Of a stretch of 32,107 bases of DNA, positions 4,391 to 31,982 are shown one piece after another. The stretch comes from Prosthecobacter debontii. GTDB lineage: Bacteria; Verrucomicrobiota; Verrucomicrobiia; Chthoniobacterales; Chthoniobacteraceae. Under the pieces are notes generated by a model. The model made no database searches and was not told where the DNA came from. It saw nothing but the letters and a program-made list of their open reading frames with translations. How positions within the stretch are numbered: the stretch's first letter is position 1; each line of letters begins with the position of its first letter. The stretch lies in NCBI GenBank assembly GCA_945905735.1, contig CAMDQC010000046.1, forward strand, positions 1 through 32,107, written 5' to 3'. The position numbers and the translations under genes were made by a program.

Positions 4391-4478
4391 CCAGCAGATT
4401 CAGGGAGGCCAGCAGATCGGGGATGGGTTTGAACTACATTCTGAAGAGGCAATCTGCTGGCCTCCTTGAATCTGCTGG
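4391..4478. repeat. Inverted pair of the 28-bp repeat (no internal gene)
   Basis: Unit 1 (4391-4418, plus orientation) and unit 2 (4451-4478, reverse complement) flank a 32-bp loop. Each unit contains CCAGCAGAT twice, separated by TCAGGGAGG or a one-base variant. The pair fills the gap between the DUF1552 stop and the start of the exported hypothetical gene. The loop contains CATTCT at a position equivalent to the start codon of the GxxExxY gene in the 6683-6781 copy, but here the ATG is followed at once by TAG. Confidence 0.85.
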
Positions 4479-4503
4479 AAATCACAAGCCGTGGCAAACT
4501 AAG

Positions 4504-5877
4504 TCACAGCGTGACCACCTTGTTGCTGTCGCCAAACTTGTCCGTCTCCACGCCCATGCGATGGGCCATTAGAAGAAGGAGGTTGCTCATGTGGGCGTCG
4601 GTATTCGCGGGGCGGCTGCAAAGCTGGTAATGCGCGCTGGTGAGCGCTCCGTCCGCGCCGAGCGCGTAGCCTTTGAAGTCTTTGGCTGATTTGTTGAAGT
4701 CGAGATGGCTGCCGTGCTTTATGCCGAGGTCGGATCCGCCGGCGAGAACTAGCGGGAGATTGGCGTTGCCGTGGCTGTGGCCGTAGGACATGCCGCTGCC
4801 GAAGAGCGCCATCGTCGAGCCGAGGAGCGGCTTGCCTCCGAGGTCCTTGGTCTCCGCGAGGCGGGTAAGGAAGTAGGCGAATTGCTCGATGGCGAAGGTG
4901 TCGTAGTTGGTGAGTTTCTCCATGTAGCCAGCATCGCCGCCGTGGTGGCTGAGCTGATGGCGCGACTCGGTGATGCCGATTTCAGGAATGGCGAAAGCAT
5001 CCCCTTCGCCGCCGAGGCTGAAGGTGGCCACGCGAGTCACGTCGGTCTGGAAAGCGAGCACCATAAGGTCATAAACGGTGCGGAAATAATCCCCAGCCAT
5101 GGTGGCGGCGATGTCGCGGTTGGTGCGCTTGCGGTCGGCGTCGGAAACGGCGGGCAGCGGTGTGTCGAGCCATGTATCGGCCCGCCGCGTGCGGATCTCC
5201 GCTTCGCGGACGGAAGTGAGATATTGGGTGAGGCGTCCTTTGTCCTCCGAGCCCATCTTTTTCTCGAGCTGACGCACTTCCGCAAGGTTGGCGTCGAGCA
5301 CACTGCCCTTGCGGCGGAGAGCGCGGCGTTGGACTGTTTTGCCGCCTTTCGGTTCCTCGAAGAGCGATGCAAAAATCTCACTGCAACGACGCAGCGAAGG
5401 TAATTGCACGCCGTCCGCGGTCCACGCGAGCGAAGCCCCGGTGAGGGCGACTTCCATCGAAGCGATTCGTGTCTGTTGCGCGGTGAGTTCGGCCATCTTT
5501 TGGTCCACGGAAATGGTGTTGCGGTCCGATGGGCCGAGCTTCCCGCCGGTCAGGAAAACGTTGATGCAGTTGTGATGATGGCTGATCGCTCCCGGGTGAT
5601 GCAGCCCGCTGATCGGCGTGATGTTCTCGCGGTGCTTCTCCAGCGGCTTCAGCGCCCTGGAAAACTGGTAATCTTTGCCCTCAGTCGTGATCTGGTAGTT
5701 GAGCGAATGAACGCCGTTCGCGAGGTAGATGAAAGCGCTGCGCTTCGGCGTGGTGGTAGCATTTTTTGCGGCGCGGAGAGGCATCATGCATTCAAGCAGC
5801 GGAAGGGAAATGAAGCTGCCGAGCGCGCGGAGGGCGTGACGGCGGTTGATCAGCCAGGATTGGGATAGGTAGTTCAT
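4504..5877 (-). CDS. DUF1552 family exported protein
   Basis: This 457-residue protein has the features of DUF1552: a twin-arginine-like N-terminus ([23 protein letters not shown] at residues 12-13), then [31 protein letters not shown], and a C-terminal stretch with [16 protein letters not shown] and the conserved LVLAGG. Length fits the family. DUF1552 genes in Verrucomicrobia and Planctomycetes are usually paired with a DUF1587/1592/1588/1585 gene, and one lies just upstream here (6783-9230). The biochemical role of the pair is not known to me. The protein is probably exported folded by Tat. Two conserved His-rich stretches suggest metal binding (inference). One 28-bp repeat unit ends 19 bp upstream of the start codon. 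Confidence 0.88.
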
Positions 5878-5895
5878 AGATGTTTCTTTTAATTT

Positions 5896-5923
5896 CCAGC
5901 AGATTCAGGGAGGCCAGCAGATT
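5896..5923 (+). repeat. Single unit of the 28-bp repeat
   Basis: Identical in sequence to the consensus of the other units (two CCAGCAGATT copies separated by CAGGGAGG). Its last two bases are the first two bases of the TAA complement that ends the GxxExxY gene (5922-5924), so the repeat abuts that gene's 3' end. No inverted partner lies within 100 bp. Confidence 0.85.
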
Positions 5924-6737
5924 ACTTTTTTGGATGTTGGATGAAGGTGATTTCGGCGGCGGTTTTGCCAAAATGGAAGATAATGCCCCAGTCGAGGTTG
6001 AGCCAGCGGAGATGGGTTTGAAGTGTGGCGCGATCGGTCGCGGTGATGCCGTCCGTGAGCGCTGTGACAGAAACGGCGCAGGTGTCGTCGATGACGAGAC
6101 TGGACATTCCGACGCCCGGATATTTTAGCACGGTGGCGGTTGGATTGAGTTGGACGTTGGAACCGGAGGATTGGATCGCGGCCCTAACGAGGCCTTTCCA
6201 TGTGCTCGCCCGATAGCCGAGTCCGATTTCGTTCAGGCATTCGCTAACCGCTTGGACAATGGCAATCGCCAGTGCGGGCTTGGAGACGAATCCCGGAAGC
6301 TCGGTCGCTGGGAAACTCGCTGTGTGAGAACGATATAGAAGCCGCTTCCAAATCAGGCTTTGCTTGCCGAAGTCCACCAGCAGACTGGTGCGAAGCCGCC
6401 AGAACTTGTTGTAGCAGAACAACTGAACCAGATGTTCCGCAGTAAATGCTCCGAAAAGACATTTCAACTCCGGGATGAAATGGTCCGCGACAACAAAGTC
6501 TGGCTCAAAGGCGTCCGCAACAATCCCGCGATAAACCAACTCCCGCCGTGGTTTGGAAAGATGCGAAATACCAGCCGCCGTGAGAGTCGCGACAAGCTCT
6601 TGATGGTAAATCTCCTCATTCAAACCTGGCCCGACCGCTGAGTGCACTTTCATCGCATGACCGATGAAGGCATGGGTGATTGGGTCACCAGCAGATTCAG
6701 GGAGGCCAGCAAATTCGGTATTTGGTTCGGTTGTCAT
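5922..6737 (-). CDS. GxxExxY protein with a degenerate second copy of the domain (PD-(D/E)XK-like)
   Basis: A 271-residue protein. The N-terminal half (about residues 18-130) is a GxxExxY domain: G38-L-N-E41-E-I-Y44, then D80 in EPDFVV, E90-L-K92, Q105 in HLVQLFCYN, and LLVDFGK. The D...ExK pattern is that of PD-(D/E)XK nuclease folds. The C-terminal half (about 155-271) looks like a decayed repeat: ECLNEIGLGYR, then LRWLNLDWGIIFHFGK, with no ExK. Family members are usually ~125-130 residues, so this is a tandem double. The start (ATG 6737) lies in the loop of an inverted repeat, and residues ~8-17 are encoded by a 28-bp repeat unit. The gene sits between the DUF1592 and DUF1552 genes, which are normally adjacent, so it looks inserted. 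The family's biochemical function is unproven. Confidence 0.82.
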   Translation of the reverse strand: MTTEPNTEFAGLPESAGDPITHAFIGHAMKVHSAVGPGLNEEIYHQELVATLTAAGISHLSKPRRELVYRGIVADAFEPDFVVADHFIPELKCLFGAFTAEHLVQLFCYNKFWRLRTSLLVDFGKQSLIWKRLLYRSHTASFPATELPGFVSKPALAIAIVQAVSECLNEIGLGYRASTWKGLVRAAIQSSGSNVQLNPTATVLKYPGVGMSSLVIDDTCAVSVTALTDGITATDRATLQTHLRWLNLDWGIIFHFGKTAAEITFIQHPKK

Positions 6738-6781
6738 TCTTAAAAAATAATCTGCTGGCCTCCCTGAATCTGCTGGTGACC
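6683..6781. repeat. Inverted pair of the 28-bp repeat spanning the GxxExxY start
   Basis: Arms of 33 bp at 6683-6715 and 6749-6781 pair almost perfectly (one mismatch: AAATT against AGATT). They include unit copies 6688-6715 and 6749-6776 plus 5 extra paired bases (GGTCA/TGACC). The 33-bp loop contains the ATG of the GxxExxY gene. The outer arm ends one base before the stop codon complement of the DUF1592 gene (6783-6785). Confidence 0.88.
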
Positions 6782-6782
6782 T

Positions 6783-9230
6783 TCACCGTTTACGCATGAG
6801 TTCGGAAAGACTAATGGCGCGGATGATGTCCTTGATTCGGTATTGGTTTTTCTTCGCTTCGGCTTGGATGACGTTGATGTCGTCCTGATCGTCGAAGGCG
6901 AGGGCGCGGCGGAGGGCGTAGGTGCAGAGGTGTTCGATGAATGCGCGGGCGACTTTGTCGCGGTCTTCGAGCAACAGGCGTTTGAACTCGTTTGCGTCTT
7001 TGAACGCGCGGCCATCGGGCATTTCACCGGTAGGGTTCACCACGGGGTCCGCTCCGAGGCCTGCGGCGACTTTTTCGTGAGTGCGCCACTGGCCTATGGC
7101 GTCGTAGTTGTCCCAGGCGAGACCGAGCGGGTCGATTCGAGCGTGGCAGGCTGCGCAGTTCGCGTCTTTGGCGTGTGCCTCAAGTTTCTCGCGGATCGTT
7201 GCTTTGGGGCTTTTCGGGGGATTGGGTTCGATGGCGGGGACATTGGCGGGCGGCGGCGGCGGCGTCTTTCCGAGGACCACTTCGCTGAGCCACACACCGC
7301 GATGCACCGGGCGTTGCCGCGTGCCGTCGGAGGTGAGGCCGAGCACGGCGCCCATGGTGAGCAGGCCGCCGCGGCGATGCTCGGGCTTGAGCGAGACGCG
7401 TTGAAAGTCGCCCTCTTTCGGCTCCGGCAGTCCGTAGAAATCGCAGAGCCGCGCATTCGCAACGGTCCAGTCGGAATCGATGAAACCGTCGATGGGCAGG
7501 TTCTTGCCGAACATCTCGCGGAAGAACTCCACCGGCTCGGAGCGCATGCTTTTCTCCAGCCATGCGTCGTAAGTGGGATAGAGTTTCTTGTCCGGCGGGA
7601 ACATGCCCACGCGGTGCAGTTGCAGCCACTGCCGCGCAAAGTCATCGATGAAACGGCTGGCCTTGCCGTCAGCGAGCATGCGGTCCACTTCTTTCGCGAG
7701 CCCATCGCCGTTCAGCGAGCCCCCTTTGGCTGCGCCGAAAAGCCCGTCATCGGGCATCGAACTCCACAGAAAAAACGAAAGTCGCGAGGCGAGTTCCGAG
7801 TCCGTGAGCCGCTCGCGGGCCACCGTGTCGCCCTCGACAAGGTAGATGAAATGCCGGGAAGTCAGCACGCCCTGCAACGCAACGCGATAAGCATCCGCAA
7901 GCTTTTCGCCCGCCTCGCGCTCGGTGCGGTAGGATTGCAAATACTGCTCCAGCTCGTCCGTTTTCACCGGACGCCGCCAAGCGCGTTCGGCGAAGCGTTG
8001 CAGATACTCCGCCACCACCTCGGGCGTGGCATCGTCGGCAGGCACCAGATCCTTGCGCCGCGATTTTTCCTCCTCGGACACCAGCGGCCCCTCCCACTCG
8101 ATCCAATCCAGCAGCACCGTGGAAAAAAGTCCGTTGCCCTTGTCGTCAAACATCTGCGGCGCGTTCGGATTGAGCAACTGCGTCTCGCTGCTGTGCGTGA
8201 AAAGGTAACCATTCCTGCTGCTCAGCGCGCTGCGAAAAGCCGCGCCTTGCCTTCGGTCCACCACGTCCGTGGCCACCACGCAAAACTCCAGCGTCGCGGG
8301 CATCTCGAGAAACACCGAAAACTCATACACCTGCGGCTTGTCCTCCGGTCCCGTGAGGTCAAACTCGACGAGCCCATCCACCGTCTCCTCGCCCGTGCGC
8401 TTGCCGATGCTCAAGTGCGCCGGTTGGCCACCGGGAGGACGGATACCACTCGCCTGGAGGCGGACTTTGTAGAGCCCGCTGTGCTCCGGCCCATTCTTTC
8501 CAAACCAGCCGGACGAAAACGCATTCTGGTTGCTGCCGGGAAACAGGAGATACCGGAGAGGCCGCTTGATGCCAAAGCGATCCAGCGCCGCCTGCTGCGA
8601 CTTTCCGTCGCCGTAACGCAGTTCCACCGCCGTCTTGCGCACTTTCCGAGCCTCGCTCGACGCGGCAGGAAATGCGCGATCCAGCACCAGCTCCGCCGCG
8701 CGGTAATAGCGGTCCACATGCGACGGCGAGAGCGAAAGCTCCGAGCCGATGCGCTCAAACCCATGCCACAGCGTGTCCTCGTTCAGCTCCCCCGGCTTCG
8801 CGGGATCATAGCGCACGCCGAGCAAGTCATAGACTGTGTTTTGATACTCCCTTCGGCTCAGCCGATAATGCGCCACCGCCGGACGCGCCGCCTTTCGCGC
8901 CGCCCGGCCCTCTTTGATGCGCGAATCGAGACTCGTCACAAACGCCGCCATCTCATCCTGCGTCGGTCGCTTCTCCTTCTTCGGCGGCATTTCGCCTGAA
9001 TTGACCTGCTCCATCATCTCCGCCCAATGATGCGTATCCGCGCCCAATTTAAAATCGCGAGAAAGCCGGTCGATGCGTAAATCGCCCTTCTCCTTTTCCG
9101 GCCCGTGGCAGCGGATGCAATGCGCCTCCAAGAAACCTTCAAATGGCTCCGCAGCATCAGCCAGTCCGACGCTGACGGCGAGAAGCAGCGCCGCAACGGA
9201 CGGTGAATAACAGCGATGGTGTAAGGTCAT
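6783..9230 (-). CDS. DUF1587/DUF1592/DUF1588/DUF1585 cytochrome-type protein
   Basis: An 815-residue exported protein with a signal peptide (residues 1-27). A PSCyt1-like heme domain follows (C38-I-R-C41-H42, then a GEMPPKK loop near 80). DUF1587 starts near 122 ([18 protein letters not shown]). A DUF1595-like region ([14 protein letters not shown]) is followed by DUF1592 near 470 ([20 protein letters not shown]). DUF1588 lies near 620 ([20 protein letters not shown] ... PPPPPANVP). A second CxxCH (CAACH, near 692) precedes the DUF1585 C-terminus ([12 protein letters not shown]). Two heme c sites suggest electron transfer in the periplasm. The overall reaction is unknown. All domains appear complete. 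It heads the minus-strand cluster with the DUF1552 gene, its usual partner. Confidence 0.9.
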
Positions 9231-30669: not shown

Positions 30670-30966
30670 ATGAAACAAAAACGCAAGCGGTAAGAAGCCG
30701 CATTTAAAGCCCGCGTCGCCCTCGAAGCGATCAAGGGGAACAAGACCATTAGTGAAATTGCCAGCGAGTTTGGAATCCATCCAGGGCAGGTCACGGATTG
30801 GAAAAAGACGCTCACCGAAGGACTGACTGGGGTGTTCGATAAAGGCGCTCCGGCGAGGGCTGAGGAGGGTTTCGAGCAGGAGCGCACGGAGTTACAATCA
30901 AAGATCGGGGAGCTGACCATCAAGGTCGATTTTCTGGTAAAAAAATCAAAACAACTCGGCCTGTGA
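30670..30966 (+). pseudogene. IS3-family OrfA with TAA at codon 8
   Basis: The frame from ATG 30670 reads MKQKRKR, TAA (30691-30693), then EAAFKARVALEAIKGNKTIS, EIASEFGIHPGQVTDWKK and a C-terminal leucine-zipper-like helix to TGA 30964-30966 (98 residues if the stop is ignored). This is the helix-turn-helix OrfA of IS3 elements, which provides end recognition. No alternative start codon is visible shortly after the TAA, so OrfA and the OrfAB fusion are probably not made from this copy. Relatives usually have an aromatic or polar residue here, so a single substitution (for example TAC or TAT to TAA) would explain it. Confidence 0.75.
30939..30945 (+). promoter_or_regulatory. A7 slippery site for -1 frameshifting between OrfA and OrfB
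   Basis: Seven consecutive A lie in the OrfA frame as gtA-AAA-AAA-T, the arrangement used for programmed -1 frameshifting in IS3 elements. A -1 slip would join VKK to IKTTRPVSGRAGLVDY and give an OrfAB transposase. Confidence 0.6.
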
Positions 30967-31841
30967 GCGGGCGTGCCGGGTTGGTGGATTACAAGCATCC
31001 GTATTTGAGTTTGAGGACGCAGTGCGAGCTGCTGAGTGTGAGTCGTTCGTCGCTGGATTATGTTCCGTTGCTGGCGTCGCCGGAGGAGTTGAACATCATG
31101 CGCATTATGGACGAAATTTATCTGCGGGACCCGTGTATCGGAGCGCGTAGAATCGTGCTGCTTTTGGAGCGCGATCACGGGCTTTGTGTGAATCGCAAAC
31201 GGGTGTCGCGGTTGCGGCGGGTGATGGGAATCGAGACGATCTTTTGTCGTCCTCGAACGAGTATTCCCGACCGCGAGCATGTGAAGTTTCCATATCTTTT
31301 GCGGGACAAAAACATCACGCGGGCGAATGAGGTATGGTGCTCGGATATAACGTACGTGCCGATGGCGCACGGGAATGCGTTTTTGTGCGTGGTGATGGAT
31401 TGGTATTCGCGCAAGGTGCTCGGGTGGGCGGTGAGCAACACGATGGACGTGGCGCTTTGTCTGACGGCGCTGGCACGTGCGCTGAAGGCTGGTGGTGGAG
31501 TTTTCCCGGAGATTTTCAATACGGACCAAGGGAGTCAATTTACGTCGCAAGAATGGGTCGCGGCGTTGCAGTCGAGAGGCATCGCGATCAGCATGGATGG
31601 CAAGGGTCGATGGATGGATAATGTGTTCGTCGAACGATTGTGGCGAAGCGTGAAATACGAGGACATTTATCTGCGTGGATACGCGGACATCGAGGAACTC
31701 AAAGTCGGGCTGACGCGCTGGTTTGGCGACTACAATGAGTGGCGTCCGCACCAGATATTTGGCGGGGCGACGCCCGCGACAATCTACGCGCAAAACGCGG
31801 CAGTCACCACACCACAACCGGAGTTGAAAGCCGCAGCATGA
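30963..31841 (+). CDS. IS3-family OrfB (DDE transposase catalytic domain)
   Basis: A 292-residue rve-type integrase core. The N-terminal HTH_21-like part (IMRIMDEIYLRDPCIGARRI, then VNRKRVSRLRRVMGI) is followed by the DDE triad: D128 in WCSDITYV, D188 in FNTDQGSQF and E224 in DNVFVERLW, with the 35-residue D-E spacing of IS3 elements. The GTG start at 30963 overlaps the OrfA stop by the pattern GTGA. In most IS3 elements OrfB works as an OrfAB frameshift product. The catalytic part is intact, but the premature stop in OrfA probably makes the element non-autonomous. The sequence ends in the usual HQIFGGATPATIY. Confidence 0.93.
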   Translation: MSGRAGLVDYKHPYLSLRTQCELLSVSRSSLDYVPLLASPEELNIMRIMDEIYLRDPCIGARRIVLLLERDHGLCVNRKRVSRLRRVMGIETIFCRPRTSIPDREHVKFPYLLRDKNITRANEVWCSDITYVPMAHGNAFLCVVMDWYSRKVLGWAVSNTMDVALCLTALARALKAGGGVFPEIFNTDQGSQFTSQEWVAALQSRGIAISMDGKGRWMDNVFVERLWRSVKYEDIYLRGYADIEELKVGLTRWFGDYNEWRPHQIFGGATPATIYAQNAAVTTPQPELKAAA

Positions 31842-31891: not shown

Positions 31892-31982
31892 CCGATATTT
31901 TGCTCTTCCACTGCGGGCTCCCGACGCTTTTCCGCTACGCTCCAAAGCGTCGGGAGCCCTCCGTTCCAGAGCAAAATATCGG
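31892..31982. repeat. Long imperfect palindrome in the IS right-end region
   Basis: Two stems nest in one hairpin. The outer stem is 15 bp (31892-31906, CCGATATTTTGCTCT, with 31968-31982). An 8-base internal loop on each side separates it from the inner stem of 16 bp (31915-31930, GGGCTCCCGACGCTTT, with 31944-31959), closed by a 13-base loop. Both stems are perfect. It lies after orfB and before the right inverted repeat, so it may be a terminator, a barrier to read-through transcription, or a small palindromic element nested in the IS. It has no T-run directly after it. Confidence 0.85.

Follow-up and report, generated by a model that had tools for sequence, protein, structure and literature searches.

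Inverted tandem-unit arms matched to GxxExxY nuclease genes point to a putative mobile hairpin element in bacteria

The interruption of an operon in Prosthecobacter debontii by a small nuclease-like gene, set among short repeats that also occur in the neighboring intergenic gap, raises the question of whether repeats and gene belong together and, if so, what the gene product does with the repeats. The stretch of DNA that we analyzed, referred to here as the window, is 32,107 nucleotides long. A sequence-only reading had recorded five copies of a 28-nt unit in the gaps of the operon, four of them arranged as two inverted pairs with loops of 32 to 33 nt, and had proposed that the nuclease-like protein might be the partner of a new class of repeats resembling REPIN/RAYT. 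All five copies were located (Table 1); the number of matches of this type expected by chance in the window, assuming uniform composition, is about 8e-11. The pairs begin at 4391/4451 (loop of 32 nt) and 6688/6749 (loop of 33 nt), and their hairpins, folded as DNA, have z values of -8.5 and -13.2.

Table 1. Positions of repeat units and genes at the interrupted operon of the window
Feature	Coordinates	Strand	Basis
28-nt unit copy 1, arm of gene-less hairpin	4391..4418	+	at most 1 mismatch to CCAGCAGATTCAGGGAGGCCAGCAGATT
28-nt unit copy 2, second arm of gene-less hairpin (32-nt loop)	4451..4478	-	at most 1 mismatch to CCAGCAGATTCAGGGAGGCCAGCAGATT
Host operon gene downstream of insertion	4504..5877	-	DUF1552, PF07586
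28-nt unit copy 3, outer arm, 3' end of GxxExxY gene	5896..5923	+	at most 1 mismatch to CCAGCAGATTCAGGGAGGCCAGCAGATT
GxxExxY/PDDEXK_3 nuclease gene, 271 aa	5922..6737	-	TIGR04256, PF13366 profiles
28-nt unit copy 4, inner arm, read through by ORF start	6688..6715	+	at most 1 mismatch to CCAGCAGATTCAGGGAGGCCAGCAGATT
28-nt unit copy 5, outer arm, 5' side of GxxExxY gene	6749..6776	-	at most 1 mismatch to CCAGCAGATTCAGGGAGGCCAGCAGATT
Host operon gene upstream of insertion	6783..9230	-	DUF1592-type, PSD domains

The identity suggested for the inserted gene, a GxxExxY protein of the PD-(D/E)XK type, was borne out by profile searches, the product scoring well above the curated cut-offs of both TIGR04256 (GxxExxY; E 1.2e-26, 93.3 bits, cut-off 35) and PF13366 (PDDEXK_3; E 1.1e-24, 87.5 bits, cut-off 22). 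Read from its first ATG, the frame starts in the 6688/6749 loop, continues in coding sequence through the arm at 6688-6715 and ends at 5896-5923, as had been described. The outer arm at 5896..5923 comprises two CCAGCAGATT units around CAGGGAGG with a period of 18, and 97% complementarity between 5896-5930 and 6742-6776, on opposite sides of the gene, means that the GxxExxY gene occupies the loop of one long inverted repeat. Residues 20-133 of the protein appear from their sequence to form an active domain, with the catalytic E...D...(E/D)xK retained, and residues ~155-267 are modeled as a degenerate domain whose helices and strands succeed one another as in the first (pLDDT mostly 73-91). Since the first 12 residues of the model have a pLDDT below 50, the N terminus encoded by the arm probably lies outside the fold. 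Elsewhere in the window, near the end of the contig, an ORF at 30963-31841 carries rve integrase core and HTH_21 domains; an inverted repeat of 39 nt, with 87% complementarity and a loop of 13 nt, follows at 31892-31982.

The 28-bp unit itself proved to be rare. Genome-wide scans that allowed up to 3 mismatches recovered 7 copies in the window genome, 4 in the relative G002 and 0 in 36 other relatives; with only 7 copies in the genome, a genome-wide family of this unit is ruled out. Outside the operon, the window genome carries one pair, on a 3.9-kb contig (C243), and G002, a sister species, carries two, one of which occupies the place orthologous to the 4391/4451 pair, where G002 is 84% identical to the window. 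No GxxExxY match lies beside the pairs of C243 or G002, and the window's GxxExxY subfamily is not represented in G002. The unit is thus partly orphaned, and the proposal that it is linked to GxxExxY genes throughout the genome fares badly; the broader link between repeats and GxxExxY is strongly supported in the general form set out below, through the presence of arms, their match to protein clades and their concentration in particular genomes. The 28-bp unit represents a single local version of a wider rule that joins GxxExxY genes to inverted arms.

The window genome has five GxxExxY genes in all, the other four of which each lie within different inverted repeats with internal tandem units. 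To score such arms, ~400 nt upstream of a gene was aligned with the reverse complement of ~400 nt downstream, with a cut-off score of at least 16, which was reached by 52 of 64 GxxExxY genes of related genomes versus 5 of 444 other ORFs at the same loci, and by 55 of 75 GxxExxY loci across phyla versus 7 of 359 control ORFs. These counts, with the chance expectation given above, rule out a chance origin of the arms. Few short control genes flanked on each side by a gap at the same loci reached the score (3/224, one of them resembling a four-helix-bundle gene by eye), and 12 of the 64 and 20 of the 75 GxxExxY genes fell short of it. The related-genome test covered 64 of 65 genes, one having too little flank, with two matches left out; the window gene and one other (L075) exceed the distance limit because they extend beyond the domain and are counted among the misses, their arms having been entered by hand for the co-variation and period analyses. 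The cross-phylum set consists of the best 80 of at least 577 loci, leans to one clade owing to a narrower alignment and includes 5 loci without enough flank, leaving 75. The arms consist of 2 to 3 tandem units with a period of 7 to 18 nt, inverted across the gene, and the elements measure ~450 to 740 bp with the gene and roughly 70 to 300 bp without it. With one query protein, GxxExxY was found in 8 of 72,556 plasmid records and in 0 of 50,697 phage records, and arms accompany plasmid genes of Gemmatirosa (score 56.5) and Bernardetia (score 18). Plasmid 1 of Gemmatirosa kalamazoonensis, a 1.1-Mb replicon, has three GxxExxY places, and the gene at 993792-994165 (L403) has very long matching inverted flanks.

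Arm sequence follows the protein rather than the host. Among 120 elements with scores of at least 14 (55, 2 entered by hand and 63), arm similarity tracked protein identity with a Mantel r of 0.62, a value reached in 0 of 2000 permutations (highest, 0.17), so that the co-variation between repeat and GxxExxY subfamily for which the sequence-only reading had asked is present; within the subsets, r was 0.32 for relatives (57) and 0.31 across phyla (63). Proteins more than 65% identical shared an arm in 61% of 422 pairs, and pairs inside one genome had similar arms in 8% of 63; the arm goes with the protein clade, not the organism. By inspection of the tree, one clade with CGCAAAG-type units spans Bacteroidetes, Nostoc, Desulfobacterota, Planctomycetes and others, and further clades have CAGGAAA, CAGGATTA or CGCAGATT arm types. 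Spacing likewise tracks architecture: the arm period is 15 to 18 in all five two-domain proteins, that of the window included, versus 8 of 115 others with the wider spacing (Fisher, 7e-6), although the five form two groups in the tree and are not independent. Single-domain proteins have periods of 7 to 11 in 107 of 115 cases. The second domains of the two-domain proteins have neither the motif glutamate nor the usual D...ExK, and a family-wide search of 40 genomes returned no further two-domain GxxExxY protein. Co-variation of arm and protein would also be expected if the protein merely binds or regulates.

All 120 aligned GxxExxY domains retain the catalytic E, D, E/D and K, a degree of conservation that is partly selected for because the domains were found by profile. 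A single-domain model built from 45 sequences had a pLDDT of 95.8 and no PDB match at an E value of 0.001 or below; the best were Cas4 SSO0001 (1.2e-3), LHK-Exo (8.6e-3) and lambda exonuclease (2e-2), with TM scores of about 0.5. On this model, GxxExxY is a minimal PD-(D/E)XK enzyme whose predicted fold is nearest, among solved structures, to those of Cas4 and lambda exonuclease, with modest similarity; it differs from them in its smaller size (about 130 aa) and, at the loci read, in its position outside CRISPR and recombination operons. A sequence-profile search returned three matches at chance level, including T7 endonuclease I (E 0.58). None of 4 proteins matched a PADLOC defense system, and 2 of 3 had no PHROGs match, the third matching a primase weakly (E 0.004).

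Arms also occur in numbers that exceed those of the genes. Across genomes, arm types were counted with two general patterns only, the first of which, with a period of 8, occurred at 2431 sites across the 288 genomes sampled in the phylum versus 130 sites for a reversed control pattern; GxxExxY domain matches of every clade numbered 625 in the same 288 genomes. GxxExxY is present in 163 of these genomes, as well as in many other phyla, and period-8 arms were found in 115 of the 163 genomes with GxxExxY versus 14 of the 125 without, the latter accounting for only 58 of the 2431 sites. When labels were shuffled within families, with at least two sites required, the observed 103 genomes compared with a maximum of 94 in 5000 shuffles. 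The reversed pattern (130 sites in total) also leans toward GxxExxY genomes, occurring in 28/163 versus 4/125, so base composition may lie behind part of the genome-level association. In 150 listed places out of the 2431 sites, 21 of 28 pairs of neighboring sites no more than 800 nt apart converge; 16 of them enclose loops of 17 to 250 nt, 4 enclose loops of 387 to 419 nt, close to the length of the gene, and the remaining pair encloses 610 nt.

The second pattern, CGCAGATT, gave 14, 38, 10 and 45 sites in the four genomes with the matching clade, and the genome with 45 (G010) has a single GxxExxY match. Among 34 other genomes, there were 48 sites in G021, 7 in G009, 5 in G006 and 4 in G016, seven genomes had 1 to 3 and 23 had none; one of the 34, G026, encodes a related protein with period-10 arms that lie outside the CGCAGATT pattern. 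G009 and G016 lack any GxxExxY match. The 48 tandem sites of G021, which has no matching GxxExxY clade, are a real exception to the pairing of repeat and protein and represent either an orphan repeat population or one whose gene is absent from the assembly. The many gene-less sites fit an arrangement in which a few autonomous genes serve many dependents, as in RAYT/REPIN.

Arms of the same design surround a second, unrelated protein family. Genes of the four-helix-bundle family TIGR02436 (S23) lie in inverted tandem-unit arms with scores of at least 16 at 20 of 26 loci, a count made without a control set of its own, and the units are by eye unlike those of GxxExxY; the 26 were drawn from 30 loci (L373-L402), weak partial matches (L397-L400) being left out. 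The occurrence of two families in such arms raises the alternative that the arms form a mobile unit served by a different, unseen recombinase, with GxxExxY and four-helix-bundle genes carried as cargo, an explanation that also accommodates the excess of the counted arm types over genes, as in G010, and orphan populations such as that of G021. We nevertheless consider it unlikely, since arm sequence tracks the GxxExxY clade across phyla, arm spacing tracks domain number, arms are scarce in genomes without GxxExxY and cargo would not need the nuclease residues that all 120 domains retain.

The S23 family also brings to mind the intervening sequence of Coxiella 23S rRNA, which, according to PMC4990558, is ~430 nt long, has a terminal stem of ~28 bp and an S23 ORF, and is cut out by RNase III. 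The resemblance to the present elements lies in a terminal stem and a small ORF in the loop; it differs in its location in rRNA and in an ORF that encodes a four-helix bundle rather than a nuclease, and the window ORF, a nuclease gene within a protein operon, is not such an intervening sequence. The precedent, the position of GxxExxY elements inside operons and the strong hairpins of the arms (folded as DNA) would all suit an RNA device, in which the arms fold the gene out of the operon transcript for RNase III-like removal or control its expression, no contact between the protein and the arms in DNA being required. Such a device would leave unexplained why arm sequence and spacing track nuclease clade and domain number and why there are so many gene-less sites, and we regard it as improbable.

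Signs of movement were sought in orthologous gaps. Comparison of 27 gltB-gltD loci, one of which (G015) had no usable gap, left 26 readable family genomes, in which the gap contains a GxxExxY element in 6 (four of CGCAGATT type and two of CGCAGAG type), other inserts or long gaps in 4 and a short gap of 28 to 78 nt in 16. G009 and G006 are short there, and their gltD DNA is 94% and 96% identical, respectively, to that of G000; when G010 was set against G335 by eye, the insert started and finished with arms. The gap (L313-L338) is an insertion hot spot, two GxxExxY clades being found in it, and in other relatives it is longer, with other ORFs (G008 and G020) or repeats (G336 and G021). For the window's own gap, the 19 strongest places in 16 genomes, three of which have a second copy, comprise the element in 1, a small ORF in GTTCTTGG-type arms in 5 (L345, L346, L347, L349 and L355), a short gap in 10, a hairpin alone in G329, another ORF in G002 and a diverged second copy in G000. 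The small ORFs of G011 and G019 match TIGR02436, the arms in G011 scoring only 13. The filler in G002 (L023:4144-5415) is an ORF of 423 aa that is unrelated and matches no Pfam family. Empty orthologous sites had been proposed as a way of defining insertion ends; gltB-gltD shows filled and short states, and the closest relative, G002, whose gap holds another ORF, yielded no clean empty counterpart of the window element.

In several respects, the elements behave as would a classical insertion sequence (IS) or MITE, with terminal inverted repeats around a gene, gene-less derivatives and filled and short sites. Target-site duplications showed no excess over shuffles, which sets the elements apart from that class: among 108 elements with scores of at least 16 and enough flank, exact 4-mers occurred in 9, compared with a mean of 4.6 and a maximum of 10 in shuffles. 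That GxxExxY mobilizes the element is our inference from gene-less copies and from differences in presence among genomes, both read from sequence. A nuclease that instead trims or resolves repeat hairpins and cruciforms, keeping the repeats tolerable without moving them, would also have its residues intact, a fold nearest to DNA end-processing nucleases and few arms in genomes that lack it. We rate such a housekeeping pair as quite improbable, given that the gene itself sits between the arms and varies in presence among close relatives and that orphan populations persist without a matching protein.

The likeness to REPIN/RAYT was upheld in part. REP/RAYT systems, or REPtrons, as presented in PMC8266576 and PMC3733652, have an HUH single-tyrosine transposase and GTAG at the foot of the palindrome. 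The elements described here share with them dispersed short hairpins together with a dedicated, low-copy enzyme encoded by a gene that has the repeats on either side; of the REPIN/RAYT traits, dispersed inverted pairs are present, in that 21 of 28 neighboring pairs converge. They differ in having a PD-(D/E)XK rather than an HUH enzyme, arms of 2 to 3 tandem units and a gene inside the inverted pair. Membership fails on the enzyme family, the partner being a TIGR04256/PF13366 protein with a PD-(D/E)XK-type fold, and on the tag, GTAG or CTAC lying within 8 nt of the outer arm end in 7 of 119 elements with 11.4 expected at random places (CGTC, 2 of 119). A similar way of working is plausible.

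Other systems offer partial parallels. In TIRtrons (Di Nocera and others 2013, PMC3733652), the gene for the TIRYT enzyme likewise lies between inverted repeats, which in certain genomes also make up families at other places, but the enzyme is there given as an HUH tyrosine transposase, not a GxxExxY protein. In Geobacter metallireducens, paired multicopy intergenic sequences, one set of which resembles sequences in many other genomes, were read as putative IHF/HU-type sites (PMC2700814, in part). They are like GxxExxY arms in being intergenic and mostly paired, a likeness of description rather than of sequence, and they may be the same repeats; the excerpt of that paper names no link to a nuclease. 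We found no earlier description of a link between GxxExxY and repeats, which is weak evidence, since the search covered mostly open papers. Within the excerpts returned, no text naming GxxExxY concerned repeats or gave a function; PDDEXK_3 and TIGR04256 returned no papers, PF13366 only an algal study and six arm sequences only a paper on fish environmental DNA.

Taken together, the data point to a selfish or mobile DNA element of a kind not described before. We suggest, with somewhat better than even confidence, that the best reading is a hairpin element that is mobile and encodes a nuclease acting on the element's own arms. The full form would comprise the arms and the GxxExxY gene and the gene-less form a plain hairpin. 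The nuclease would recognize the spaced units of its own arms when these fold as a hairpin or cruciform or turn single stranded, and would cut at the folded or single-stranded repeat, and cutting would lead to the spread of gene-bearing and gene-less copies. The gene would thus act as the autonomous partner on which the solo hairpins depend, in a relation like that of RAYT to REPIN with an unrelated enzyme. We extend this more tentatively, at a little under an even chance, to phylum-spanning mobile hairpins in which each Cas4-like clade has its own arm code and drives gene-less hairpins, with S23/TIGR02436 as a second branch and the 23S intervening sequences as a trapped special case.

The clade-by-clade match between nuclease and repeat supplies GxxExxY proteins with a substrate that can be tested and suggests where a large class of hairpin repeats in bacteria may have originated. 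It would set a PD-(D/E)XK nuclease beside HUH enzymes as a driver of small repeats, and the matched series of arms and proteins, the fused proteins included, constitutes a system in which to learn how a small nuclease reads spaced DNA units.
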